22,253 nt of DNA from a virus. The DNA lies in the IMG/VR virus record IMGVR_UViG_3300014050_000159, positions 1 to 22,253 of that record; one strand, given 5' to 3'. The notes under the pieces were generated by a model, which saw nothing but the letters and a program-made list of their open reading frames with translations, was not told the DNA's origin and searched no databases. Of the stretch, positions 2,173 through 18,275 are shown one piece after another; position 1 is the stretch's first letter; each line of letters starts with the position of its first letter. The position numbers were made by a program, and so were the translations under genes.

Positions 2173-2427
2173 ATGTCTGTAAAAAGATTAGTCCCTATAC
2201 ATGCAGTAGCACTTGCTTCTGATCCTTCTGGAGCCCGTATTGGAGATATTTACTACAATACAACAGACTCAAAGTTAAAATTTTATGACGGTGCTAATTG
2301 GAATGCAGTTGGCGGCGGCGCAATTACAGGACTTTTAGATCATATTCATACTTATGATGGTGCAGTATTTTCTGTAGAAGCAACTGAAGTTCCAGCTCCT
2401 GGAACAGTTGACGGTGGTAGTGCATAA
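2173..2427 (+). CDS. Small fibre-associated protein
   Basis: 84 residues dominated by one tail-fibre module, 'ARIGDIYYNTTDSKLKFYDG' followed by 'ANW' (about residues 21-43), which resembles the 'AGQIYYNNAENVMYYYNG' element of the upstream fibre. The remainder is short and ends in a Gly/Ser tail. It may be a separated fibre head or linker piece, a chaperone-like adaptor, or the leftover of a fibre gene that lost its shaft. AGGGGG at 2161-2166 is six bases before the start, and the stop overlaps the next start (TAATG), indicating coupling to the following fibre. Confidence 0.55.
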   Translation: MSVKRLVPIHAVALASDPSGARIGDIYYNTTDSKLKFYDGANWNAVGGGAITGLLDHIHTYDGAVFSVEATEVPAPGTVDGGSA

Positions 2428-3719
2428 TGCCAGTTATAAAAATAAGAAGAGGCACAAGCACTCAGTGGGCTACATCTAATAGAGTTCTGCAACTTGGAGA
2501 ACTTGGACTAGATACAACACTTAATAAACTTAAAGCTGGTAATGGAACTACAGCATGGTCAAGTCTTCCATTTCTTCAGGCAGATGCAGATGTTACAGAG
2601 TTAGCCCAAGATGCTGTAGCAACAGCGCTTGCTAATGGCACACATTCAAATATAACTGTTACATATGACGATGCAACAAATAAAATTAGCTTAGCCACAG
2701 GCCCAGATGTTATAACACAAACTAGTCTATCAAATACTTTAACAAATGCAACAACTGGATACGTACCAATTGCAGATGTGGGATCAGCAGATGGAGTAGC
2801 ATCACTAGATTCAAGTGGAAAAGTTCCAGATTCAGAAATTCCAGCAGGTATTGCAAGACTAGCATCCCCTACATTTACAGGAACAGTTGCTGGTATAACA
2901 AAAAATATGGTTGGTCTTGGAAACGTAGACAATACTTCAGATGCTAATAAGCCAGTTTCAACTGCTACAACAACAGCACTTGGACTTAAGGCTAATCTTG
3001 CTTCACCAGCACTTACTGGAACACCAACTGCACCACTTGCAGCAACAGGAACTAACACAACACAGATTGCAACAACAAGTTTTGTTCAGCAAGAACTTAA
3101 TGTTTTAACAACTGGAGCACCAGCAGCACTAAATACTCTTGACGAACTTGCAGCAGCCCTTGGCGATGATGCAAATTATGCAGCAACTATTACTACTGCT
3201 TTAGGAGCAAAGTCACCAATTGCTTCACCAACATTTACAGGAACAGTTACAATCCCAGCAGGAGCAAGCATTTCAGGATTTGCTCCACTTGCTTCACCAA
3301 CATTTACAGGTACCGTATCAGGTATTACAAAGTCAATGGTAGGACTTGGTAATGTTGACAATACAACTGATGCAAATAAGCCAGTTTCAACAGCAACTCA
3401 AACAGCATTAGATGCAAAATCTAATCAAATTGTAACAATAAATGCACAAACATCATCGTACACACTTGCAACAACAGATTTAGATAAAATGATTGAAATG
3501 TCTGGCGGAGGAACACTAACCATTACAGACTCTGCTTCATTCTCAGTAGGGTTTACTTGCAATATTCTTCAAACAGGATCGTCACAAGTTACAATTGCTG
3601 GAACTGGATTTACGCCAGATTCTACCCCTGGATTAAAATTAAGAACACAATGGAGTTCCGCCACATTAGTTAAGAGAGCCCTAAACTCTTGGGTTGTAAT
3701 GGGCGATTTGAGCGCATGA
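2427..3719 (+). CDS. Tail fibre with Mtd-N-like head and T4-type repeats
   Basis: 430 residues. Residues 1-50 ('IKIRRGTSTQW', 'GELGLDTTLNKLKAGNGTTAW') match the head domain common to phage tropism-determinant and fibre proteins, which attaches the fibre to the baseplate. The shaft has two copies of a module of about 40 residues, 'SPTFTGTV..GIT' plus 'MVGLGNVDNT' (147-188 and 289-330), and a 'TTSFVQQELN' block like that of T4-group fibres. The last 90 residues, from 'LATTDLDKMIEMSGGGTLTI', resemble a terminal knob found on many tail fibres. Translation is coupled to the preceding gene through TAATG. Likely a receptor-contacting fibre. Confidence 0.75.
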   Translation: MPVIKIRRGTSTQWATSNRVLQLGELGLDTTLNKLKAGNGTTAWSSLPFLQADADVTELAQDAVATALANGTHSNITVTYDDATNKISLATGPDVITQTSLSNTLTNATTGYVPIADVGSADGVASLDSSGKVPDSEIPAGIARLASPTFTGTVAGITKNMVGLGNVDNTSDANKPVSTATTTALGLKANLASPALTGTPTAPLAATGTNTTQIATTSFVQQELNVLTTGAPAALNTLDELAAALGDDANYAATITTALGAKSPIASPTFTGTVTIPAGASISGFAPLASPTFTGTVSGITKSMVGLGNVDNTTDANKPVSTATQTALDAKSNQIVTINAQTSSYTLATTDLDKMIEMSGGGTLTITDSASFSVGFTCNILQTGSSQVTIAGTGFTPDSTPGLKLRTQWSSATLVKRALNSWVVMGDLSA

Positions 3720-3720
3720 T

Positions 3721-4677
3721 ATGGCTAGAATATTTGGCAGACATGGCAGACGTAAACAAAAGGTCCCAAACTTATCTGGATTAACTAGATCTCAAGCTCA
3801 GGCAGAATTAACTGCTCGTGGATTTTCATATTCTGAGTCTTCTTCAAATACATCTACATCTTCTGATGATACAAAAATAGCAAGTCAAAGTATAACTGCA
3901 GACACAACTCTTTTATATGGAGAATCTGTTACTTATACTTATTATACATATGTAGCACCTTATTATAATCCTTATTATAATCCGCCACCATATTATAATC
4001 CATATTACAATCCATATAGTAATCCTCCACCATATGATAACACTTACTATAATCCATATAGTAATCCTCCACCATATGATAACACTTACTATAATCCATA
4101 TAGTAATCCTCCACCATACGATAATACATATTACAATCCATACTATAACCCATACTATAATCCACCAAGCGGCGGTGGCGGAGGATGTTTTGTATTCGGA
4201 ACAGAAATTCTTATGGCAGACGGTACTTATAAAAAAATGGAAGATCTTCAAATTGGAGATCAAATTTGTGGTGCTTCAATTCCAACGCTACCAGATGAAG
4301 AATATCCAGCCTATGTTGATGAATGGTCAATTTCAGAAACTAACGGCATAGAAAAAATTTCTTCCACAGTTACTGGAAAGATATTCGACATGTTCAATAG
4401 CTACTTTAGAATAAATAACTCAATAAATATAACATTCGAGCACCTTGTTTTATCTAGATCTATTAATACAGAATGGCGATTTGTTTCAATTGGTGCTATT
4501 GAAATAGGTGACTTTATATTAAATGAAGACATGCAAGAAGTTGAAGTTATTTCAAAAGAAGAAATATTTGAACAGGTTCAAACTATTAATATTGATACAG
4601 AGCCAAAAGATGTTTATTTTGTAAAAGGAATGCTGGCCCACAACATTATTTGTTACTATTGCGGTGGTAAGATATGA
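3721..4677 (+). CDS. PASTA-like / Pro-Tyr-Asn repeat / Hint-domain tail protein
   Basis: A three-part protein of 318 residues. Residues 15-77 look like a PASTA domain ('VPNLSGLTRSQAQAELTARG', later 'GESVTY'), a fold that in bacterial kinases and penicillin-binding proteins contacts peptidoglycan. Residues 80-149 are almost only Pro, Tyr and Asn and contain three 14-residue repeats. After a Gly5 linker, residues 156-308 form a Hint (intein-like) domain without endonuclease: Cys156 begins 'CFVFGTEILMADGT', T238-F-E-H241 gives the TxxH motif of block B, and 'VYFVKGMLAHN' ends in His307-Asn308. Only ten residues follow, starting with Ile, so normal splicing is unlikely and autocleavage or transfer (bacterial intein-like behaviour) is more plausible. 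Its ATGA stop/start overlap couples it to an oxygenase gene. Surface role inferred. Confidence 0.75.
   Translation: MARIFGRHGRRKQKVPNLSGLTRSQAQAELTARGFSYSESSSNTSTSSDDTKIASQSITADTTLLYGESVTYTYYTYVAPYYNPYYNPPPYYNPYYNPYSNPPPYDNTYYNPYSNPPPYDNTYYNPYSNPPPYDNTYYNPYYNPYYNPPSGGGGGCFVFGTEILMADGTYKKMEDLQIGDQICGASIPTLPDEEYPAYVDEWSISETNGIEKISSTVTGKIFDMFNSYFRINNSINITFEHLVLSRSINTEWRFVSIGAIEIGDFILNEDMQEVEVISKEEIFEQVQTINIDTEPKDVYFVKGMLAHNIICYYCGGKI
4009..4134 (+). repeat. Three tandem 42-bp repeats (NPYSNPPPYDNTYY x3)
   Basis: Copies at 4009-4050, 4051-4092 and 4093-4134 each encode the same 14 residues. The first two copies are identical in DNA. The third differs at five positions, all third-codon and synonymous (Y133, N135, T136, Y137, Y138). 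Similar but less regular PYYNP units flank the array on both sides. Confidence 0.9.
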
Positions 4678-5255
4678 TAATTGAATATCAAAATTTTTTA
4701 CCAGAGTCTGATTATTTAATTCTAAGAAGATTTGCAGAAAGAACAAATGACTGGCAAAAAAATAGTAGTCCTTTATGGAATATGAGGGCCGTAAATACAT
4801 TTAATGTAGATCCAAGAGAAAAAGAAGTTCTGACGACAATGTTAAAGTTGCATAATTTAACTAGAATCGAAATTGAAAACAATTTAAACCCTGAAAGCAA
4901 ATTGCATGCTGAGACCATACAGTTTCAAAGAACATTTGTTCAGCCAGATCAGCCACCACATTCAGACTCTACTGGAAATAATGGAGAAGATAATGGAACT
5001 TCACAAAGAAAGTTTTCGTCATTAATATATTTAAATGATGAATTTTCTGGAGGGAATTTGTGGTTTCCAAAGCAGAATACAGAGATTGAGCCAAAGCCAA
5101 ATACCATAATTATTTTCCCAGCCACATTTGAATATATGCATGGAGTAAAAGCAGTGACAAATGGGATTAGATATAGTATACTTGAGTTTTGGACATATGC
5201 AACAGAGAATACTTTTTGCGAAAATGTTTTAGAGAGGTGGGCAGATAATGGCTAA
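4674..5255 (+). CDS. 2-oxoglutarate-Fe(II) oxygenase, prolyl-hydroxylase type (first of two)
   Basis: 193 residues with the double-stranded beta-helix signature of the family: iron ligands H96-x-D98 in 'QPPHSDS', 'LNDEFSGGNLWFP' (120-132), distal iron ligand H156 in 'YMHGVKAV', and R166 for 2-oxoglutarate binding. The family couples oxidative decarboxylation of 2-oxoglutarate to hydroxylation, most often of Pro, Asn, Asp or Lys side chains in this subgroup. All catalytic residues are present, so it should be active. The start lies inside the stop of the Pro/Tyr/Asn-repeat gene (ATGA), making that protein an obvious candidate substrate; this is inference. Related enzymes occur in cyanophages near tail genes. 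Confidence 0.85.
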   Translation: MIIEYQNFLPESDYLILRRFAERTNDWQKNSSPLWNMRAVNTFNVDPREKEVLTTMLKLHNLTRIEIENNLNPESKLHAETIQFQRTFVQPDQPPHSDSTGNNGEDNGTSQRKFSSLIYLNDEFSGGNLWFPKQNTEIEPKPNTIIIFPATFEYMHGVKAVTNGIRYSILEFWTYATENTFCENVLERWADNG

Positions 5256-5865
5256 AGAAGATATAGTTGTTATATATGATTTTATAACAGATGAAGAATG
5301 TTCAGCGATTTTAGAATATGAAAAATATTTGACTGAAAATGATTTATGGGATCAGGGAGATAAAAAGGGAGATCCAAAACAACACTGGGCAAAAAGATTT
5401 CTAGGTGTTCAAAATTTAAGTTTAAAAGAAAAAGGCCTCGGAACCCCCAGAGACCTTGAGATGATAGATTTATGTGTCTCAATAAGAAAAAGAATTAGAT
5501 CTAAAATAAAAGAAACATGGGGCCTTCAGGAAGAAATTTATGCGGATTCTTTAAACTTAATTAGATGGCCACAAGCAGAACAGCAACCTCCTCATGCAGA
5601 TTATGAAAACTTTGGCTTAGAGCCTCATGTGTGGAATTGGAGAGATATAGGAGTTGTCTTATATCTAAATGATGACTTTGTTGGTGGCCAAATATATTTT
5701 CCACAGCATGATTATTCAATAGATATTAAAAGAAAAATGTTAGCATTTTTTCCAGGAGATCAACAGCATGCTCATGGAGTTAAAAAGGTAGAAGAAGGAT
5801 GTAGATATACAGTTAATATGTTCTATACCTACTTTGAGTCACATAAGGACACACTAGAGCAATGA
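5248..5865 (+). CDS. 2-oxoglutarate-Fe(II) oxygenase, prolyl-hydroxylase type (second of two)
   Basis: 205 residues, same fold and motifs as its neighbour but clearly diverged: H116-x-D118 in 'PPHADY', 'LNDDFVGGQIYFP' (140-152), H176 in 'HAHGVKKV' and R186 in 'GCRYTVNMFYTYF'. The catalytic set is complete. The N-terminal 100 residues differ strongly from the first enzyme, and this part often decides substrate choice, so the pair probably acts on different residues or proteins rather than being a recent duplication. It overlaps the upstream gene by 8 bases and the downstream gene by ATGA. Substrate is unknown; nearby Pro/Asn-rich and Gly-Pro tail proteins are candidates. Confidence 0.85.
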   Translation: MAKEDIVVIYDFITDEECSAILEYEKYLTENDLWDQGDKKGDPKQHWAKRFLGVQNLSLKEKGLGTPRDLEMIDLCVSIRKRIRSKIKETWGLQEEIYADSLNLIRWPQAEQQPPHADYENFGLEPHVWNWRDIGVVLYLNDDFVGGQIYFPQHDYSIDIKRKMLAFFPGDQQHAHGVKKVEEGCRYTVNMFYTYFESHKDTLEQ

Positions 5866-6599
5866 TATTTAAAAATAAATCGGTAGAGAACCAAATAGAA
5901 TTCTATTCCTGGTCTCACCAAGCTGAAGAAATAACTACAATGCCAGTTCCAGCAAAATCACATATATCTGAAATGTGGAAAGCAAAAGAAAGATATTATG
6001 GCAATGAAGAAAAAGAGTTAGATCTTAGAGTTACTGGAGATAGAGGAAACGGTGTTCCTAATCTAGGACTAAAACACTGTATGCCATATTTTGATGCGAT
6101 GACTGCTGGCTATTTACAACTGCTTCATTGTGATCTTCAAGTTACCCAAGTAAACGGGCAGCCAGAAATTAAATGGAGGTCATCTTTAGCCCCGCTTCAA
6201 GTTAGACAAATAGAAGAGATAGATGCACCTCACGGATATAGTTCAAAACATTATGCCTGGTTAATGCAATGGGGATTAAAAACTCCCGCAGGTTGGTCTT
6301 GTTTAATCACACAACCAATAAATAGACCAGAGTCGCCATTTATATGTACTTCTGGGTTTATGGATACAGACAAATATCATGCTCCAGGGAACATTAGCTT
6401 TCATGTCAAAGAAGGATTTGAGGGCATTGTTCCAGCTGGTACTCCAATATTTCAAATTATTCCAATCAAAAGAGAGCCATGGGTATCTGTCAAAAATAAT
6501 AATTTGCGTGAAGAAGGTAGGTTTGATCAAGAAAGAAAAAAGAATGTTTTTTCTGGATACTATAAAAAGAATCGCTGGCAAAAGAAGGAGTATTCGTAA
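5862..6599 (+). CDS. Conserved phage protein, DUF6065-like
   Basis: 245 residues, no recognised catalytic motif. From memory it resembles the DUF6065 family found in cyanophages and other aquatic phages: an aromatic-rich middle with 'KTPAGWSCLITQPINRPESP' (about 144-163), 'SGFMDTDKYHAPGNISFHVK' (about 167-186) and 'GIVPAGTPIFQIIPIKREPW' (about 192-211). The alternating hydrophobic pattern suggests a beta-barrel or jelly-roll core, and the tail is strongly basic (KKNVFSGYYKKNRWQKK). It overlaps the second oxygenase by ATGA and the next gene by TAATG, so it is made together with them. It could act with the oxygenases, for instance in substrate presentation or as a third tailoring enzyme; function is not known. 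Confidence 0.5.
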   Translation: MIFKNKSVENQIEFYSWSHQAEEITTMPVPAKSHISEMWKAKERYYGNEEKELDLRVTGDRGNGVPNLGLKHCMPYFDAMTAGYLQLLHCDLQVTQVNGQPEIKWRSSLAPLQVRQIEEIDAPHGYSSKHYAWLMQWGLKTPAGWSCLITQPINRPESPFICTSGFMDTDKYHAPGNISFHVKEGFEGIVPAGTPIFQIIPIKREPWVSVKNNNLREEGRFDQERKKNVFSGYYKKNRWQKKEYS

Positions 6600-7000
6600 T
6601 GCATGATCCAACACTCACTAGATGGAAAAAACAAGCCGTATTTGGTTTTGCTGGCACAAACTTAAAAATTGAAACAATTAAAAATGCAGCAGGTAGATAC
6701 CAGACAGCCGTATTTGAGACAGATGAAATTGGTAGACTAAGGGATCTAGCTATTAAGTTTTCTAAATACCATTCCTCAGAAGAAGATGCTTCAAACTTTT
6801 ATGAATCATTAGTGAAAGGCTTTATCGCTCTACAAGAAAAAGCCTACTATTCTTCAATAGAAGATGTTTATGCTGAGATAGAGTCAGCCAGCCTTATTCC
6901 TAATCATAACGGTCCTAGGAAGTTCGACTTTGTCAGAGTTCCTGCAGGAAATACAATAGTTGGACATAACATTAACGTAGAGGAAAATGAGCGAGGATAG
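6599..7000 (+). CDS. Hypothetical protein
   Basis: 133 residues, not recognised. It has an N-terminal beta-type segment ('KKQAVFGFAGTNLKIETIKN'), a central helical part ('SSEEDASNFYESLVKGFIAL', about 59-78), and a C-terminal stretch ending in 'EENERG'. There is no signal peptide, membrane segment or cysteine pattern. The start overlaps the previous stop (TAATG) and the 3' end overlaps the next gene by 14 bases, so it belongs to the oxygenase transcription unit. A small soluble assembly factor or virion protein would fit; nothing in the sequence decides. Confidence 0.6.
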   Translation: MHDPTLTRWKKQAVFGFAGTNLKIETIKNAAGRYQTAVFETDEIGRLRDLAIKFSKYHSSEEDASNFYESLVKGFIALQEKAYYSSIEDVYAEIESASLIPNHNGPRKFDFVRVPAGNTIVGHNINVEENERG

Positions 7001-7193
7001 GTCGGCAAAGCCGTGGGACCTTCTAAACAAAAATATAGGAAGGGTAGAGCAGGATATTGCAGAAAACAGAATGAATATTTGCAGATCCTGTGAGCATTTC
7101 TTAAAAATGACGGGGCAATGCAAAAAATGTGGCTGTATTATGGCTATGAAAACTAAGTTACCTAACGCTACTTGCCCAGAAGGAAAATGGTAG
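6987..7193 (+). CDS. Six-cysteine zinc-ribbon-like mini-protein (DUF6171-like)
   Basis: 68 residues with cysteines at 32, 35, 45, 48, 50 and 63, arranged CxxC, nine residues, CxxCxC, twelve residues, C, and ending 'CPEGKW'. Two CxxC knuckles suggest a structural zinc site. The layout matches, from memory, small cyanophage and marine phage proteins placed in DUF6171. It is the last gene of the first operon, overlapping the preceding gene by 14 bases. Its role is unknown; a metal-binding adaptor or assembly factor is possible. Confidence 0.6.
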   Translation: MSEDRSAKPWDLLNKNIGRVEQDIAENRMNICRSCEHFLKMTGQCKKCGCIMAMKTKLPNATCPEGKW

Positions 7194-7981: not shown

Positions 7982-8440
7982 ATGGCAGTCAGACGTTTAG
8001 GTATATCTAATCCAACACTTAATACAGATACTTCTGTATTCACTGCATTAAATGCGACCTACCTTTGTTCAGTAATTATTACAAATAAAGATTCTGTCGA
8101 AAAGACAGCTAGAGTTTGGGTACGGCCATCTGGCGCTACTCTCGCATCTCAATATGGATATATTGTTTACGATGTCGTAGTTCCTGCAGGGAACTCGATT
8201 GAAACTCACAGATTTGCAATTTCGGACGGGGATGCAGTATGGGTAAGAGGAAATAGCTCAAACCTATCATTCTCTCTCAACGGTATATATGATTCGTCGG
8301 CATCAATAGATGATCATATTATTGATACTACAGGTGTCCATGGAATTGCAGATACAGCACAATTAGCCACACTTACTACAACAAATTCCCTAAATACCCG
8401 CCTAATCAATATTGAGCTAGGCCTAGGGATATTTGATTAA
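7982..8440 (+). CDS. Small beta-sandwich tail tip protein with C-terminal coil
   Basis: 152 residues. Residues 1-105 align by eye with the protein at 11182: both begin 'MA(V/I)xRL..SNP..NTD' and share 'RVWV', 'SIETHRF'/'SLETFRF' and 'LSFSLNGI'/'ISFSLSGI'. The fold is likely a small all-beta sandwich, as in tip or decoration proteins. The C-terminal 45 residues add a 'DTTGVHGIADTAQLATL' segment and a heptad-like end (NSLNTRLINIELGLG) that could trimerise or dock onto another fibre. It starts directly after the 7240 stop and so forms a two-gene cassette with it. Confidence 0.6.
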   Translation: MAVRRLGISNPTLNTDTSVFTALNATYLCSVIITNKDSVEKTARVWVRPSGATLASQYGYIVYDVVVPAGNSIETHRFAISDGDAVWVRGNSSNLSFSLNGIYDSSASIDDHIIDTTGVHGIADTAQLATLTTTNSLNTRLINIELGLGIFD

Positions 8441-8476: not shown

Positions 8477-10390
8477 ATGCCAAATTATTCAAGTTTATCA
8501 ACCCAGATCGATGCGATCAAGAGCGAAATATCATCCTCTCTCGCAGCATCTGCCTATTCCGCTCAAGATCTAGTATATGTAGCCAAAGCGCTACAAGCGC
8601 TAGGTTCAGTAGTTGCACCAGATGGTGTATCTAATATTACGATTAATGACAATATTTATCTTGGCACAACAGCAGAAGCGTTTGCAACCACTGCTGCTCT
8701 AACTAATCCTAATTTAGTAATTGCTGTAAGCAAAGACGATTATGCACAGCTAGCATTCACAAATAGATCTTCAAATTCCAACGCATCAACAGATGTTATT
8801 CTTTATTCAAATAACGGTAACGATGCCTCTGGATATATTGACATGGGTATTACATCTTCTAACTTTGCCGATCCAGACTATACAATTACTGGCAAAGGCG
8901 ACGGATACATATTTATGGTTGGCGCAGAAGCTGGAGTTCAAGATAAAGGTAATCTAGTACTTGCAACTTCTGATACAGGCACACAAAACAAAATTATATT
9001 TGCAGCAGGAGGACTTGCTTCAGATAATACACAGATGGTAATTACACCAAATCAAAGCGTTGCAATTAATATTCCTACTCCATCAACATCACCATCAACA
9101 GGAGCACTCACAGTAGCTGGCGGAGTGGGTATTACTGGAGATGTTAATATTAATGGAGCAATCACATTTGGCGGAACTGGAACTTCTGTTTCAACAGCAA
9201 ACCTTTCTGTCACAGACCCACTATTATTTGTTGGTAATGCTAACGCTGGAGACGCATTAGATCTAGGATTTGTTGGTGAATACTCAACATCAGTTGCAAC
9301 AATTACACGGACAATTTCTAATAAAGCTCTTACATCAAATGTAGCAACTCTTACTACATCCGCTGCTCATGGTTTTGCTGTCGGAGACTATGCGGTAGTA
9401 TCTGGAGTAGACGCTACTTTTAACGGAACTTATTTAATTGCTTCAGTTCCTACAACTACAACATTTACATATGCTAAAACAGCAACTAATGTAACTTCCG
9501 CAGCAGCAACAGGATCTGCAGCAGTATCTTTAAAGCGCAGATTTGCAGCGGTAACAAGAGATGCATCTGACGGAGTAATTAAATTTGCATCAAATATTAC
9601 AACAAAGCCCACAAGCACAATTAATTTTTCAGAAGCTGGATTAACTTATTCTGATATTAAGGCTGGATCAATTCAAGTAGACTCAGCAGTAATTGGAAAT
9701 GTAGATAATACAGAGCTACAATATCTAAATGGCGTAACATCAGCAATTCAGACTCAAATTGATACTAAGTTAGCATCTTCAACAGCAGCTTCAACATATG
9801 CTCCAATTGTAGGAGCCACACTTACTGGTACAGTAACACTTCCATCAACAACATCAATCGGTAATGTATCTTCAACAGAAATTGGATACGTAGATGGAGT
9901 AACATCTGCAATTCAAACACAGTTAGATGCAAAACTTGCATCAGCAACTGCATCATCAACATATGCTCCACTTACAGGAGCAGCATTAGTTCGTCCAGTA
10001 TTGACATCAGCATTTGAAACAAATGCAGTTTCTGCAACACAAGCAACTGGAACAGTAAACGTAGATTTATCTACAGCAGCAGTTCATTATTATACAGGAG
10101 CGGCAGCAGCAAACTGGACATTTAACTTTAGGGGAAATGGATCAACTACATTAAATTCATTGTTATCAGTTGGACAATCTGCTACAGTAGCATTTTTAAA
10201 TACAAATGCATCAACAGGATATTATCCAACAGCTTTTCAAATTGATGGAGTTGCAGTAACTCCAAAATGGCAGGGTGGAACAGCGCCGACTACTGGAAGT
10301 GCTTCCTCAATAGATTCGTATACATTTACAATTATTAAAACGGCATCGGCAACATACACAGTTCTTGCCTCACAAGTTAAATTCGCATAG
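8477..10390 (+). CDS. Long tail fibre protein with FCCH-like insert and knob
   Basis: 637 residues. Residues 1-45 form a helical head ('LVYVAKALQAL'). The shaft up to about residue 265 is closely shared with the fibre at 17031 ('GYIDMGITSSNF', 'ITGKGDGYIFMVGA', 'TPNQSVAINI', 'GAITFGGTGTS'). Residues 282-351 are an inserted beta domain ('NKALTSNVATLTTSAAHGF', 'GVDATFNGTYLIASV') like those annotated as FCCH-like in phage fibres. Two 'IGNV..TE..Y..GVTSAIQTQ.DAK' repeats follow. The last 125 residues form a knob ending 'SIDSYTFTIIKTASATYTVL', which resembles the end of the fibre at 12140. First gene of a three-gene cassette; likely a main receptor-binding fibre. Confidence 0.75.
   Translation: MPNYSSLSTQIDAIKSEISSSLAASAYSAQDLVYVAKALQALGSVVAPDGVSNITINDNIYLGTTAEAFATTAALTNPNLVIAVSKDDYAQLAFTNRSSNSNASTDVILYSNNGNDASGYIDMGITSSNFADPDYTITGKGDGYIFMVGAEAGVQDKGNLVLATSDTGTQNKIIFAAGGLASDNTQMVITPNQSVAINIPTPSTSPSTGALTVAGGVGITGDVNINGAITFGGTGTSVSTANLSVTDPLLFVGNANAGDALDLGFVGEYSTSVATITRTISNKALTSNVATLTTSAAHGFAVGDYAVVSGVDATFNGTYLIASVPTTTTFTYAKTATNVTSAAATGSAAVSLKRRFAAVTRDASDGVIKFASNITTKPTSTINFSEAGLTYSDIKAGSIQVDSAVIGNVDNTELQYLNGVTSAIQTQIDTKLASSTAASTYAPIVGATLTGTVTLPSTTSIGNVSSTEIGYVDGVTSAIQTQLDAKLASATASSTYAPLTGAALVRPVLTSAFETNAVSATQATGTVNVDLSTAAVHYYTGAAAANWTFNFRGNGSTTLNSLLSVGQSATVAFLNTNASTGYYPTAFQIDGVAVTPKWQGGTAPTTGSASSIDSYTFTIIKTASATYTVLASQVKFA
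9320..9530 (+). other. FCCH-like domain coding segment, copy 1
   Basis: Encodes about 70 residues from 'NKALTSNVATLTT' to 'TGSAAVS'. It splits the conserved shaft between 'DLGFVGEY' and 'AAVTRDASDG', which are nearly contiguous in the paralogue at 17031. The related copy is at 13037-13240, in a different part of its fibre. Confidence 0.7.
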
Positions 10391-10402: not shown

Positions 10403-11182
10403 ATGCCACTATTAGAAACTGTAGGATCTAGTTCATCTAGGGGATTTGGAATGTTTGGTAAAACAGAATATCCGATTAATGCTATATATCTTTCTGCTAA
10501 CCTTTATGCGCCATTAGTTGACTCTACAATATTTTCATTAGGAGCTAAATCAACATCACAAATAAATATTGTTAGTGGTGCTTCTTATTTAAATGATCAA
10601 GTAAATACATCAAGAAAAGTTCTGCAGGGAGACGGGGCTGTTGGAGTTAAAGTGCCTGGTGGAAATCCAGGAACTACACATACAGTTTCAATATGGCAAA
10701 GAGCACGTTCAGGTGGACAATCTGGAATGCTTTTATCAAAATTTTTAAATTCAGACGACAGTGATATAACTGGAACAACAAACTATCCAAATACTAAAGG
10801 ATACCCACTAGACATATGGGATGAAGGAGGCTCAACTGGAAACTCTATAGTATTTAATCAAGGTGATGGTGGAGCAAATAAAGTAACTCAGGCTTTAAAT
10901 ATAAATTTTAATACTACAACATGGACTCATTGGGCTTTCACTTTTGACGGATCAACTTCAAGGCTTTTTAGAAATGGGTCTTACGTTGGGCCACAATCTT
11001 CATATTATAGTTCATGGTCAACATATAGTGGATCATGGACAATTGGATCCTGGGCAGGGATAGGTCAGTTTGCTGCTTATGCTCTTACAAGCAGTAATTT
11101 TTCAAATTTTGCAGTATGGAATAACACAGTAAAAAATGCTGGAGATATATCAAATATTTATGCGGCAGGGCCTTCAGTATAA
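10403..11182 (+). CDS. LamG/concanavalin-like tail adhesin
   Basis: 259 residues. The N-terminal tag 'MPLLETVGSSSSRGFGMFGK' is a short anchor-like segment similar to those of 14331 and 15797. The rest fits a jelly-roll concanavalin/LamG-type fold: 'HTVSIWQRARSG' (about 91-102), 'TWTHWAFTFDGSTSRLFRNG' (about 174-193) with the typical strand followed by a 'dG' turn, and 'SNFAVWNNTVKNAGDISNIY' at the end. Such domains bind sugars. A GGGGG run at 10390-10394 serves as ribosome site. The stop overlaps the next start (TAATG). Second gene of the 8477 cassette, so probably a tip protein or an alternative receptor binder. Confidence 0.65.
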   Translation: MPLLETVGSSSSRGFGMFGKTEYPINAIYLSANLYAPLVDSTIFSLGAKSTSQINIVSGASYLNDQVNTSRKVLQGDGAVGVKVPGGNPGTTHTVSIWQRARSGGQSGMLLSKFLNSDDSDITGTTNYPNTKGYPLDIWDEGGSTGNSIVFNQGDGGANKVTQALNINFNTTTWTHWAFTFDGSTSRLFRNGSYVGPQSSYYSSWSTYSGSWTIGSWAGIGQFAAYALTSSNFSNFAVWNNTVKNAGDISNIYAAGPSV

Positions 11183-11553
11183 TGGCTATATCAAGACTAG
11201 CAACATCTAATCCCGCATCTAATACAGATATACTTTTGTATACTGGATCAAGAACTATTTTAACTTCAGTTATTGCTACAAATAGGTCTTCAGATCCCGC
11301 CACAATCAGAGTATGGGTTGTCCCACTAGATCAGGACTCAACTCCTGCAAATCATGTTTTCATTTCTTACAATGTTTCAATTAGCGGTAACAATAGTCTT
11401 GAGACTTTTAGATTCCCCGTTTTAACTGGAGATAAAGTTTATGTGCGGGCATCAACAGGAGATATTTCATTTAGCCTTTCAGGTATAGATGATACAACAG
11501 TTACTGGGCTTGAGTATGCGACCTTAGAGGCGCTTATTCTGGGCTTGGCATAG
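11182..11553 (+). CDS. Small beta-sandwich tail protein
   Basis: 123 residues, paralogue of the first two thirds of the protein at 7982 ('SRLATSNPASNTD', 'ATIRVWVVPLD', 'NNSLETFRFPV', 'DISFSLSGIDD'). It lacks that protein's long C-terminal coil and ends in a short hydrophobic helix (LEYATLEALILGLA). Probably folds as a small beta sandwich that caps or decorates a fibre. It is translationally coupled to the LamG-like gene and closes the 8477 cassette. Confidence 0.6.
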   Translation: MAISRLATSNPASNTDILLYTGSRTILTSVIATNRSSDPATIRVWVVPLDQDSTPANHVFISYNVSISGNNSLETFRFPVLTGDKVYVRASTGDISFSLSGIDDTTVTGLEYATLEALILGLA

Positions 11554-11889: not shown

Positions 11890-12140
11890 TGGCCACAATA
11901 GCTAACCCAAATGAGGTCTCAGACCTTAGTTTTGCTAATACTACATTTTACGGATTTAGGATAAATGCCGCAACAGGCAAGTTTTACGTAGATGTGATAA
12001 ATGACGGGTCAACCGTAGAATTACCAGCAAATGACGTACTAAAAGATAATCAGTATAGAACTTGGATTTGGACCAAAAATACTGTACAATTTAGTTGGGA
12101 CGGCACAAAAAAGACACACCTTAAGATGGAGATAAAATAA
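11889..12140 (+). CDS. Small conserved tail-region protein
   Basis: 83 residues. Not assigned to a named family. It has a compact beta pattern ('YGFRINAATGKFYVDVIND', then 'YRTWIWTKNTVQFSWDGTKK'), rich in aromatic residues near the end, as in small structural or carbohydrate-contacting proteins. It is coupled on both sides by TAATG overlaps, immediately before the long fibre at 12140, so it may act as that fibre's adaptor. Function is inferred from position only. Confidence 0.5.
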   Translation: MATIANPNEVSDLSFANTTFYGFRINAATGKFYVDVINDGSTVELPANDVLKDNQYRTWIWTKNTVQFSWDGTKKTHLKMEIK

Positions 12141-14320
12141 TGACACAAATTATAGATTTAGGCAAACTTAGATTTCACTGGGCTGATTCATATAACGGCA
12201 GCACAGAATACGAATTAAACGATGTAGTCAAATACGGTGGAAACGCATACGTTTACACAAACGCAGTGGCAACCACTGGCAACCTCCCAACTAACACCAC
12301 ATATTGGAAAACAATGGTGGAAGGAATTAATTTCTTAGGTGTATATTCATCTGGTACAGCATATAAGCCAGGAGACTCAGTAACACATGGTGCAAATCTT
12401 TACCTTTGCGAAAACCCATCAACTGGCAACACTCCACCAAATGCTACATATTGGTCAAAACTTGCAAGCGGTATTCAATACGAAGGTGCATACAGCGCAT
12501 CTGTAAATTATCAGAAAGATGACATTGTATCTTACGGCGGAAGCGTATATATTGCTCTTTCAGATTTCATAAACTTTATACCAACTAATGCAACCTATTG
12601 GGCAAAATTAGTAGACGGTACATATCCAGCACAAGCTGGCTTAACAAATTATATTTTAAAGACAGACGGTTCAAACGTCTCATGGACAAATGCCCCAACA
12701 TTAGACGATGCAACAATTGTTGACGATCTAATTGTAGGAGGAACAACCTATGCTGGAGATAACGCAGATAACTTTGATGCGGCAGCAGTATTAACTGGAG
12801 CACGAGCAGTATTTGATATGGACTCATCTCCATATGGTCAAGTTGCAATACATAACTCAAACACAACCTCATCGACAGATGTTATTGCATATTCCGCAAA
12901 TGGAGTAGATGCCTCTGGTTGGATTGATATGGGTATCACTGGACAAGATTTTAATCAGGCTACCTTTGGAATCACTGGTCCAAATGATGGATATATCTTT
13001 ATGCAGGCTCCAGAAGTATTTACAAATTCAGTAACAAATAAATCTTTAACATCAAATGTAGCAACACTTACTGTAGGAACACACAGCATCAGAGTTGGAA
13101 TGCCAGTAGTCATTACTGGAGTTGATGCAACATTTAATGGTACTTATACAGTTACAGCAGTTACAGCTACAACATTTAGTTATGCTAAAACTGCATCAAA
13201 TGTTACTTCAGCAGTTGTTTCTCCATCAGGAACAGTAGTAGCTGGAAAAACTGGAGCAGGTAATTTAGTTTTTGCAACGGGAGCAAACGGCACTGCAAAT
13301 AAAATTGTATTTGCGGCTGGCGGTTATGATTCTGGCAGTACTCAAATGGAAATTTTTCCAAATAGCAAAGTTTATATTAACATCCCAACAGCCTCAACAT
13401 CTTCTACAACAGGAGCACTTGTTGTAAATGGAGGAGTTGGAATTGCAGGATCAGTTAATATTGCTGGAAATACAACAATTACTGGTAATTTAACATTTGG
13501 TGGAGGATCAACAACTACATCAAATCTTGCAGTTTCTGATCCACTTATTTTTGTTGGAAATGCAGCAACTGGAGATACAAACGACCTTGGAATTATTGAA
13601 GAATATCGAACTGGCGGATCAACTAAGTATGCTGGTATTGTTCGTGATGCTACAGATGGAATATTTAAAGTATTTAATGGTGCATCAACAAAACCAACAT
13701 CTACAATTAACTTTTCAGAAGCTGGACTTGGATATGGCTCATTGCAAGTAGGAGCAGTTTCAGCAGCAGCAATAACTGGTTCAGGAAATCTTACAATTGC
13801 AACAGATAAGCTTGTAGTTAATTCATCAACTGGTGCAATTACAGCAGCTGGAACATTTACTCCTTCAGGATTAGTAACAGCAAATGGTGGAATTTCATCA
13901 TCAGGATCTGTCACTCTCACTGGTGGAGTTTCAATGAGCGGAACAGTAGATGTTCAAGAACTTCGTGAACAAGTTGTAGATGTAACACTTTCTTCAAACG
14001 CTGGAACATTAGATTGGTCAGCTGGAAATATTTATTACATTGGAACAGCACCAACTGGCAACATGACGCTTAATGCTACAAATGTTCCAACAGATAATTC
14101 AAAAATTATGACAATCAATATCTTTGTAGTACAGGGTTCAACTGGATATATCCCTGGAACATTCCAAATTGGTGGAGCCGCACAGACAATTCGTTGGGCT
14201 GGTGGAACAGCACCTACTGCAACATCGTCTGCTGGTAAAATTGATGTGTTCTCATTCACACTGCAAAGAACATCAGCAGGATCTTGGATTGTGTACGGAG
14301 CAGCAACACTCAACTTTTAA
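12140..14320 (+). CDS. Long tail fibre with triple CBM5/12-like head
   Basis: 726 residues. The N-terminal 160 residues hold three repeats of a short carbohydrate-binding-like module (about 12-57, 66-106, 116-155). Each has the pattern Y..(G/L)D.V.(Y/H)G...Y followed by P.N.TYW (W56, W105, W154), typical of chitin-binding CBM5/12 folds. A shaft shared with 8477 and 17031 follows ('GWIDMGITGQDFNQA', 'NDGYIFM'). An FCCH-like insert occupies about 300-367. Next come 'STSSTTGALVVNGGVGIAG' and a knob from about 610, ending in 'SFTLQRTSAGSWIVYGA'. Coupled by TAATG to 11889. Likely a host-surface glycan-binding fibre. Confidence 0.7.
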   Translation: MTQIIDLGKLRFHWADSYNGSTEYELNDVVKYGGNAYVYTNAVATTGNLPTNTTYWKTMVEGINFLGVYSSGTAYKPGDSVTHGANLYLCENPSTGNTPPNATYWSKLASGIQYEGAYSASVNYQKDDIVSYGGSVYIALSDFINFIPTNATYWAKLVDGTYPAQAGLTNYILKTDGSNVSWTNAPTLDDATIVDDLIVGGTTYAGDNADNFDAAAVLTGARAVFDMDSSPYGQVAIHNSNTTSSTDVIAYSANGVDASGWIDMGITGQDFNQATFGITGPNDGYIFMQAPEVFTNSVTNKSLTSNVATLTVGTHSIRVGMPVVITGVDATFNGTYTVTAVTATTFSYAKTASNVTSAVVSPSGTVVAGKTGAGNLVFATGANGTANKIVFAAGGYDSGSTQMEIFPNSKVYINIPTASTSSTTGALVVNGGVGIAGSVNIAGNTTITGNLTFGGGSTTTSNLAVSDPLIFVGNAATGDTNDLGIIEEYRTGGSTKYAGIVRDATDGIFKVFNGASTKPTSTINFSEAGLGYGSLQVGAVSAAAITGSGNLTIATDKLVVNSSTGAITAAGTFTPSGLVTANGGISSSGSVTLTGGVSMSGTVDVQELREQVVDVTLSSNAGTLDWSAGNIYYIGTAPTGNMTLNATNVPTDNSKIMTINIFVVQGSTGYIPGTFQIGGAAQTIRWAGGTAPTATSSAGKIDVFSFTLQRTSAGSWIVYGAATLNF
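13037..13240 (+). other. FCCH-like domain coding segment, copy 2
   Basis: Encodes about 68 residues ('NKSLTSNVATLTVGTHSIRV', 'GVDATFNGTYTVTAV', 'TFSYAKTASNVTSAVV'). Here it interrupts the shaft between 'YIFMQAPEVF' and 'GNLVFATGANG', well before the site used in the 8477 fibre. The two copies are clearly similar in protein but diverged in DNA. Confidence 0.7.
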
Positions 14321-17030: not shown

Positions 17031-18275
17031 ATGACACTTGCAACAGAAATTGGTTTAGTTAAAACGGAAATAGCTTCATCGCTAGCCGCTTCTCTATATA
17101 CCGCAAAAGATTTAGTATACGTAGCAAAAGCAATTGAAGCCCTAGCAAATGCTGAGACAACAACTGGAGTCTTTGAGACAGTCGATGTAAACTCTCTTCT
17201 ATATGTTGGCCCAAATGCAGATACATTTAATACAGCGGCGGGACTAACAAATCCTGTAATTATCGCTCAATCTAATTATAATGATTATTCACAGATAGCA
17301 TTTAAGAATACCAACTCAGGCTCAAATGCCTCAACAGACTTTATTGCATACTCAAACAATGGAACAGACTCAGATGGCTACATTGATATGGGTATTACTT
17401 CACAAAACTTTTCAGATCCCAATTTTACTATCACAGGTAAAGGTGATGGATATATATTTATGGTCGGTGCCGCAGGCGGAGTAGATCAAGGAAACTTAGT
17501 TCTTGCCACAAGTGACACTGGATCACAAAACAAAATTGTATTTGCAGCAGGCGGATTAGCTTCAAACAATCGGCAGATGACGATTACTCCAAATCAAAGC
17601 GTTGCAATTAATATTGCAACTCCATCAGTTTCCCCATCAACAGGAGCGCTTACAGTAGTTGGCGGTGTAGGTATTCAGGGAGATGTAAACATTCAGGGAG
17701 CAATTACATTCGGCGGCACAGGAACATCTGTTTCTGCAGCAAACCTTTCTGTAACAGATCCGTTAGTATTTGTTGGAAATAATAATGCGGGGGACGCAGT
17801 AGATCTAGGATTAGTAGGAGAATATACAGTTTCTGCTACAAAGAAGTATGCTGGTGTAGTAAGAGATGCATCAGATGGAATAATTAAATTCTTTAAAGAC
17901 GCTACAACAAAGCCATCATCTACAGTTAACTTTTCAGGTGCAGGTTTAGCATATGCAGACATTCAGGCAGGTGCAATTACTGCAACATCTGCAACTATCG
18001 GTAATGTTTCAAATACCGAACTTCAATATTTGGACGGCGTTACAAGCGCAATTCAAACACAACTGGATGCTAAAGCAGTATATCCAGTTCAGACAAGCCA
18101 ATCAGGTAAGTATCTTACTACAAATGGCACAGTAACATCTTGGGCAACGGTAGATGCCCTTCCAGCACAAGCAAATAATTCTGGATATTATCTAACCACA
18201 AATGGAACATCGGCATCGTGGGCAGCACTTGTCACTGATCCTTTACCGCAAATATTCATGATGATGGGAGCATAA
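17031..18275 (+). CDS. Short paralogue of the long tail fibre
   Basis: 414 residues. Its shaft is very close to that of the 8477 fibre: similar head ('DLVYVAKAIEAL'), 'GYIDMGITSQNF', 'ITGKGDGYIFMVGA', 'TPNQSVAINIATPS' and 'FGGTGTSVSAANLSVTDP'. It lacks the FCCH-like insert, carries one 'IGNVSNTELQYLDGVTSAIQ' repeat instead of two, and has no knob. Instead it ends with two 'Y.LTTNGT..SWA' repeats and 'IFMMMGA', a short hydrophobic end that may receive a separate tip protein. The next genes encode such candidates. Either an ancestral knobless form or a deletion product; the reading frame is intact. Confidence 0.75.
   Translation: MTLATEIGLVKTEIASSLAASLYTAKDLVYVAKAIEALANAETTTGVFETVDVNSLLYVGPNADTFNTAAGLTNPVIIAQSNYNDYSQIAFKNTNSGSNASTDFIAYSNNGTDSDGYIDMGITSQNFSDPNFTITGKGDGYIFMVGAAGGVDQGNLVLATSDTGSQNKIVFAAGGLASNNRQMTITPNQSVAINIATPSVSPSTGALTVVGGVGIQGDVNIQGAITFGGTGTSVSAANLSVTDPLVFVGNNNAGDAVDLGLVGEYTVSATKKYAGVVRDASDGIIKFFKDATTKPSSTVNFSGAGLAYADIQAGAITATSATIGNVSNTELQYLDGVTSAIQTQLDAKAVYPVQTSQSGKYLTTNGTVTSWATVDALPAQANNSGYYLTTNGTSASWAALVTDPLPQIFMMMGA

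Follow-up and report, generated by a model that had tools for sequence, protein, structure and literature searches.

OXY2-type oxygenases accompany a Pro/Tyr/Asn-rich stalk in phage tail-fibre islands and may hydroxylate it

The window analysed here is the whole stretch of 22,253 bases of virus record IMGVR_UViG_3300014050_000159 (IMG/VR), which contains part of a tail-fibre island. Directly 3′ of a fibre gene with an Mtd_N domain, the gene at 3721-4677 encodes a stalk protein that combines a PASTA domain, a Pro/Tyr/Asn-rich stalk and a C-terminal Hint domain. It is followed by the genes for two 2-oxoglutarate-Fe(II) (2OG-Fe(II)) oxygenases, OXY1 and OXY2, a DUF6065-like protein, P133 and a DUF6171 protein. 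We found that OXY2 and P133 are conserved companions of this stalk and that OXY2 follows the stalk rather than the PASTA or the Hint domain. In the reading that we favour, to which we give a probability of roughly 55%, the enzymes modify the stalk: OXY2-led prolyl hydroxylation of a virion stalk would be followed by activation through the Hint domain. No published description of this gene set was found in the literature searched.

OXY2 and P133 stay with the stalk

Relatives were gathered with the stalk protein, OXY2, the Hint profile and a DNA pattern for NPPPYxNxY, and the gathered loci were scanned with iterated hidden Markov models of the oxygenase, DUF6065-like, P133, Hint and PASTA families. 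The DNA pattern uses the stalk peptide alone and gives the fairest test. Scanned over 2.9 million viral contigs (all of IMG/VR), it matched 10 contigs, every one of which carries OXY2 and P133; OXY1 is present in six and the DUF6065-like gene in eight. Co-occurrence in relatives had been set beforehand as the test of the initial annotation, which was made from the sequence alone, and the proposed link withstands it. The baseline was c1, which is a virion protein from this island with at least 450 encoding loci; 80 of these were kept and 40 had at least 9 kb downstream. Both a Pro/Tyr/Asn stalk and a downstream oxygenase were absent from 38 of these 40 loci and present in the other two (Fisher p 0.0013, with shared ancestry ignored). 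Among the Hint-profile loci with enough sequence, an oxygenase lies within 6 kb in 27/36, compared to 2/40 control loci.

The flanking domains of the stalk are exchanged among relatives. In three loci (L007, L008 and L020), PASTA and the same stalk are joined to a Cys-rich end without Hint, and OXY2 and P133 are retained; a further locus (L011) has both the Hint-ended and the Cys-rich-ended version. In L009, FN3 replaces PASTA in front of stalk and Hint in a different genomic setting, and OXY1 (49%), OXY2 (61%), the DUF6065-like gene (49%) and a P133 relative are all kept. A Hint domain 50% identical to that of the window is found on an FGFTP stalk in L048, where OXY1, OXY2 and P133 are missing and a distant oxygenase is present instead. 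These swaps indicate that the oxygenase tracks the stalk, not PASTA or Hint. In the oxygenase tree, which was made with a quick method and has open forks and long branches, an OXY2 clade of 16 rows (SH-aLRT 99) occurs only with NPPPY-type stalks (NPPPY, TPPYDN, NPPVYDN), and its nearest neighbour, from L063, lies beside a polyproline stalk.

The Hint scan showed a single architecture with many stalk types, namely NPPPYDN, TPPYDN, NPPVYSN, FGFTP, FSPFGVFG, FFGPPG, NPGFSPGF, NTDPPVV, polyproline and FPTFPT, as well as QYYAAP without Hint. Pro occurs in all of these, aromatic residues (Tyr or Phe) occur in most, and Asn is dispensable.

The oxygenases match prolyl hydroxylases best

Both enzymes score above the cut-off of 27 bits for PF13640 (2OG-FeII_Oxy_3), with 46.5 bits for OXY1 and 37.3 bits for OXY2. 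The catalytic HxD...H...R residues, H96/D98/H156/R166 in OXY1 and H116/D118/H176/R186 in OXY2, are invariant in relatives, and the initial call of two intact oxygenases was thus correct. When the profiles were compared to the PDB, human prolyl 3-hydroxylase 1 came first for both (3.3e-9 for OXY1 and 2e-9 for OXY2), followed by bacterial prolyl 4-hydroxylases (P4Hs; 1.5e-3 and 4e-5, respectively). Since the stalks always contain Pro and both profiles match prolyl hydroxylases best, we favour prolyl hydroxylation, with peptidyl proline as the best guess for the substrate of OXY1 and OXY2. A nucleic-acid oxygenase (Tet/JBP-like) was considered and rejected, because Pfam gave weak hits at most (0.011 for OXY1) and the PDB matches are prolyl hydroxylases. 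No relative of OXY2 was found in 84,980 prokaryote genomes, and therefore no prophage or host copy was seen; cultured phages gave one match, at 28%.

A prokaryotic 2OG hydroxylase that modifies Pro-rich repeats is known from Bacillus anthracis, whose P4H hydroxylates Pro-Pro-Gly collagen-like peptides (Schnicker and Dey 2016, as cited in PMC8968730). However, this is a cellular enzyme with a collagen-like (Gly-X-Y) substrate, whereas the stalk of the window has no Gly-X-Y repeat. Likewise, human prolyl 3-hydroxylase 1 differs as a eukaryotic multidomain collagen enzyme. Plant extensins are hydroxyproline-rich glycoproteins with prolyl-hydroxylated repeats of Pro runs and Tyr; their likeness to the stalk is by analogy only and no homology is claimed.

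Domains of the stalk protein

The PASTA domain (PF03793) reaches 34.5 bits against a gathering cut-off of 23.2. The stalk is composed of Y24, P22, N15, S3, D3 and T3 (34% Tyr, 21% Asn), so that Pro, Tyr and Asn make up 61/70 residues, compared to at most 33 when the whole protein was shuffled 2000 times. Both the PASTA-like domain and the 70-residue segment of the initial annotation were thereby borne out. At the DNA level the stalk is a 42-bp tandem repeat of 4.7 copies with 85% matches. A near-identical strain (L003; 99.95% over 3.9 kb, with downstream gene products 100% identical) has a stalk that is 18 residues shorter, which points to fast change of stalk length. The difference between L003 215-1117 and window 3721-4677 is as slippage in the 42-bp repeat would give. 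By eye, no hydrophobic segment was seen at the N-terminus (MARIFGRHGRRKQK...) and secretion, one of the two locations first proposed, was rejected as unsupported; a virion part fits the protein better.

For the C-terminal domain, Pfam gave Hom_end_hint (5.7e-6) and Hint (3e-4), both below the gathering cut-offs. PHROG 38766, annotated as virion structural protein, matches residues 147-309 (3e-13), and the family profile matches the solved bacterial intein-like (BIL) domain 2lwy (1.3e-5) and the gp41-1 intein. With Cys156, T238-F-E-H241 (TFEH) and His307-Asn308-Ile309, and an end 10 residues before the stop, the sequence has the features of a Hint domain, predicted to be autoprocessing, as initially annotated. 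A true (class 1) intein was ruled out, as the +1 residue is Ile and just 10 residues would form the C-extein.

Cys1, TxxH and His-Asn without a +1 nucleophile is the layout of A-type BIL domains of the Hint superfamily (PMC7765530). The window domain shares with these the profile match to 2lwy, the lack of a +1 Cys, Ser or Thr and its place in a variable protein. It differs in that it ends a phage tail-region stalk protein and carries a 10-residue tail, and related phages use Ser1 and His-Asp. Indeed, the relatives form two Hint groups, Cys1...TxxH...His-Asn and Ser1...SxxH...His-Asp-Ser/Gly, apart from a small number that end in Tyr-Asn or in an unusual way. Residue 1 is Cys or Ser in essentially all of them (motif read without gaps), and usually 4-13 aa follow the C-terminal motif. 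Cleavage at Asn308, also proposed in the initial annotation, does not hold as a general function, as the motif reads His-Asp or Tyr-Asn in many relatives and is followed by so little sequence. Cys156 is a plausible cleavage site. With the C-terminal Asn frequently lost and few residues behind it, selection probably acts on a reaction at the junction of stalk and Hint.

A C-terminal Hint domain (about 30% identity) on a tail-region structural protein is also found in the jumbo phages Erwinia phage Alexandra (gp112) and Phage NCTB, but these proteins have no Pro/aromatic stalk before Hint and no adjacent oxygenase is annotated. In NCTB (one of L034/L035, the other being Alexandra), three Hint proteins are encoded close together.

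A proposed route to a modified appendage

In the favoured reading, the product of the block would be a modified virion appendage located in the tail-fibre region. Its 318-aa protein would combine a small domain for adhesion or assembly (PASTA in the window, FN3 in other phages), an extended Pro/aromatic stalk and a Hint cap. OXY2 would hydroxylate stalk prolines, probably in the NPPPY-type repeats, OXY1 would be an optional second activity and P133 a helper needed for the NPPPY-type stalk. Hydroxylation might stiffen the extended stalk, protect it, or make a site for decoration or host recognition. Hint would then convert the peptide bond preceding Cys156 into an activated thioester, or into an ester in the relatives with Ser1, after which the stalk end would either come free of Hint or be transferred to a nucleophile.

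Several observations weigh against this proposal. Sequence similarity does not fix the substrate of an oxygenase. By profile, an oxygenase is absent from nine of the Hint loci with sufficient flanking sequence, including loci with F/T/P-type (L058, L060, L061/L062) and IANAQQPY-type (L057, L072) stalks; the loci with a YYAAPQ stalk (L134) or an FPT stalk (L146/L147) lack one as well. Oxygenases are therefore not needed for every stalk. Moreover, as the contigs are related by descent, their counts do not represent independent events, and few of the swaps are decisive. Finally, foreign genes collect in tail-fibre islands and phage 2OG oxygenases are common and widespread (PMC12774648).

Of the alternatives, one fares best, although we consider it rather unlikely: the oxygenases, the DUF6065-like protein, P133 and the DUF6171 protein could be accessory cargo of a variable tail-fibre island, linked to the stalk but acting on host metabolites, proteins or nucleic acid. 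Block members do come, go and change order among loci, 2OG oxygenases are widespread in phages, the DUF6065-like gene occurs in HF2-like haloviruses with neither oxygenase nor stalk annotated beside it, and some stalk-less control phages have two extra oxygenases 6 kb upstream. However, linkage alone predicts neither that OXY2 and P133 stay with the stalk through exchange of its N- and C-terminal domains, nor that they are absent from 38/38 stalk-less sister loci, and similarity to prolyl hydroxylases next to a Pro-rich neighbour is a specific match.

A modification of stalk Tyr or Asn instead of Pro, for instance for Tyr cross-links or as a decoration site, seems improbable to us. The Tyr and Asn content of the stalk and the recurrence of Tyr or Phe in most stalk types would suit it, but FGFTP-type stalks, with no Asn and little or no Tyr, are accompanied by oxygenases, the polyproline stalk of L063 has an OXY2-like enzyme, and the best solved relatives are prolyl hydroxylases. 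The initial annotation had tied the oxygenases to the repeat protein with both Pro and Asn as possible targets. The association gains support from co-occurrence, within-family control and swaps; Asn is disfavoured as a general target, given that it is missing from other stalks with a linked oxygenase and that Pro is present in all. We similarly doubt that the target of the oxygenases is a different tail-fibre protein from this island, for example the Mtd_N protein encoded immediately upstream, whose gene is adjacent in many loci, since the 38 control sister loci have the island but no oxygenase there (individual fibre proteins were not tallied) and L009 has oxygenases and stalk without recognisable copies of the window fibre proteins on its 8-kb contig.

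More speculatively, prolyl hydroxylation of the stalk could be one case of widespread modular phage appendages, with an Ig-like/PASTA head, an exchangeable Pro/aromatic stalk, a Cys/Ser Hint cap and a cognate hydroxylase for each stalk type. Here, Hint would join the hydroxylated stalk covalently to another molecule in a hedgehog-like manner instead of merely cleaving it. We regard this extension as less likely than not; if it is true, the virus would tailor part of its virion by way of hydroxyproline with enzymes that it encodes itself.

Many phage 2OG oxygenases lack known substrates and are usually filed as auxiliary metabolic genes. Here, one defined oxygenase subfamily remains tied to a single stalk sequence when the flanking domains are exchanged, and this offers a testable substrate. 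If the favoured reading is true, phages use dedicated enzymes to produce stalks with hydroxyproline, and Hint domains help to finish virion parts in an abundant aquatic phage group, as judged from the number of c1 loci.

Gene block, neighbouring genes and host

Open reading frames were called mechanically, and the coordinates as well as residues Cys156 and Asn308 agree with those first given (Table 1). Of the ATGA overlaps described initially, those at 4674 (stalk gene/OXY1) and 5862 (OXY2/DUF6065-like) are present, whereas OXY1 and OXY2 overlap by 8 nt. The unit had been drawn as 3721-6599; the genes are there, but the unit runs on with P133 and then the DUF6171 gene to 7193.

Table 1. Positions of the stalk protein, its domains and the downstream genes in the window.
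Feature	Position	Strand	Evidence
Stalk protein, 318 aa: PASTA, Pro/Tyr/Asn stalk, C-terminal Hint	3721..4677	+	Pfam, PHROG, profile matches
PASTA domain, residues 14-71	3760..3933	+	Pfam PF03793 2e-8, above gathering cut-off
Pro/Tyr/Asn stalk, residues 80-149, 42-bp tandem repeat NPYSNPPPYDNTYY	3958..4167	+	Repeat and composition analysis
Hint domain: Cys156 (4186-4188), TxxH residues 238-241 (4432-4443), His307-Asn308 (4639-4644)	4186..4644	+	
10-residue tail IICYYCGGKI after His-Asn; +1 is Ile, not Cys/Ser/Thr	4645..4674	+	
OXY1, 2OG-Fe(II) oxygenase, 193 aa	4674..5255	+	Pfam PF13640 7.3e-12
OXY2, 2OG-Fe(II) oxygenase, 205 aa; constant companion of NPPPY-type stalks	5248..5865	+	Pfam PF13640 5.4e-9
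DUF6065-like protein, 245 aa; optional member	5862..6599	+	PHROG 7084 2e-32
P133, 133 aa, of no known family	6599..7000	+	In every full locus with OXY2 and NPPPY-type stalk
DUF6171 protein, 68 aa, CxxC pairs; optional in relatives	6987..7193	+	Pfam 5.4e-8

The DUF6065-like gene is present as annotated and its product belongs firmly to PHROG 7084, but the match to DUF6065 itself (PF19541) is weak, with 15 bits against a gathering cut-off of 26.6 (E 0.018). Its AlphaFold model (pLDDT 73.5) resembles dUTPase-type beta-clip proteins in Foldseek (dUTPases, 3e-4), with a high root-mean-square deviation in most matches. Related proteins, at about 30% identity, are conserved across the HF2-like viruses of haloarchaea (49 records), and in Halorubrum phage HF2 (L033 5851-6741) the gene lies near tail and baseplate genes. 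For P133, a fold search with a model of pLDDT 68 gave no significant match (nothing below E 0.026), and no relatives were found in cultured phages.

Other enzymes were observed beside related stalks. In L009, a gene at 2426-3178 between stalk-Hint and OXY1 encodes an APS-kinase-like/cytidylyltransferase-like protein (Pfam APS kinase 7e-17); the same interval holds a 274-aa protein (3424-4248) whose motifs, judged by eye, recall a sulfotransferase, but it had no Pfam, PHROG or PDB match and this reading stays a guess. In two oxygenase-free Phe/Thr/Pro stalk-Hint loci (L061 9893-11891 and L058 6607-8605), the genes include one for a nucleotide-sugar epimerase (Pfam 6e-35 in L061) and another for a possible glycosyltransferase of 316 aa with no significant match. 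In one branch (L017 5828-8000), extra small genes lie between Hint and OXY2; one product looks like a GNAT protein by eye and another matches PHROG 2954 (1e-8). Sister-phage islands encode PASTA proteins with Cys-rich or QYYAAP middles and neither Hint nor oxygenase (L133 8224-9459, L134 10839-11474).

The terminase of a 103.7-kb relative (the record of L007) shares 62-63% identity with its counterparts in Streptomyces phages, among them Gilson and BillNye, and the ribonucleotide reductase of L005 is also closest to Streptomyces phages. An actinobacterial host is therefore likely, and the uncultured virus probably infects freshwater actinobacteria; from the habitat literature (PMC6802176, PMC10202952), our guess would be 'Ca. 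Nanopelagicales'. Further along the fibre island of the window, paralogous genes are found at 7982-8440 and 11182-11553, and at 8477-10390, 12140-14320 and 17031-18275, which suggests repeated duplication.

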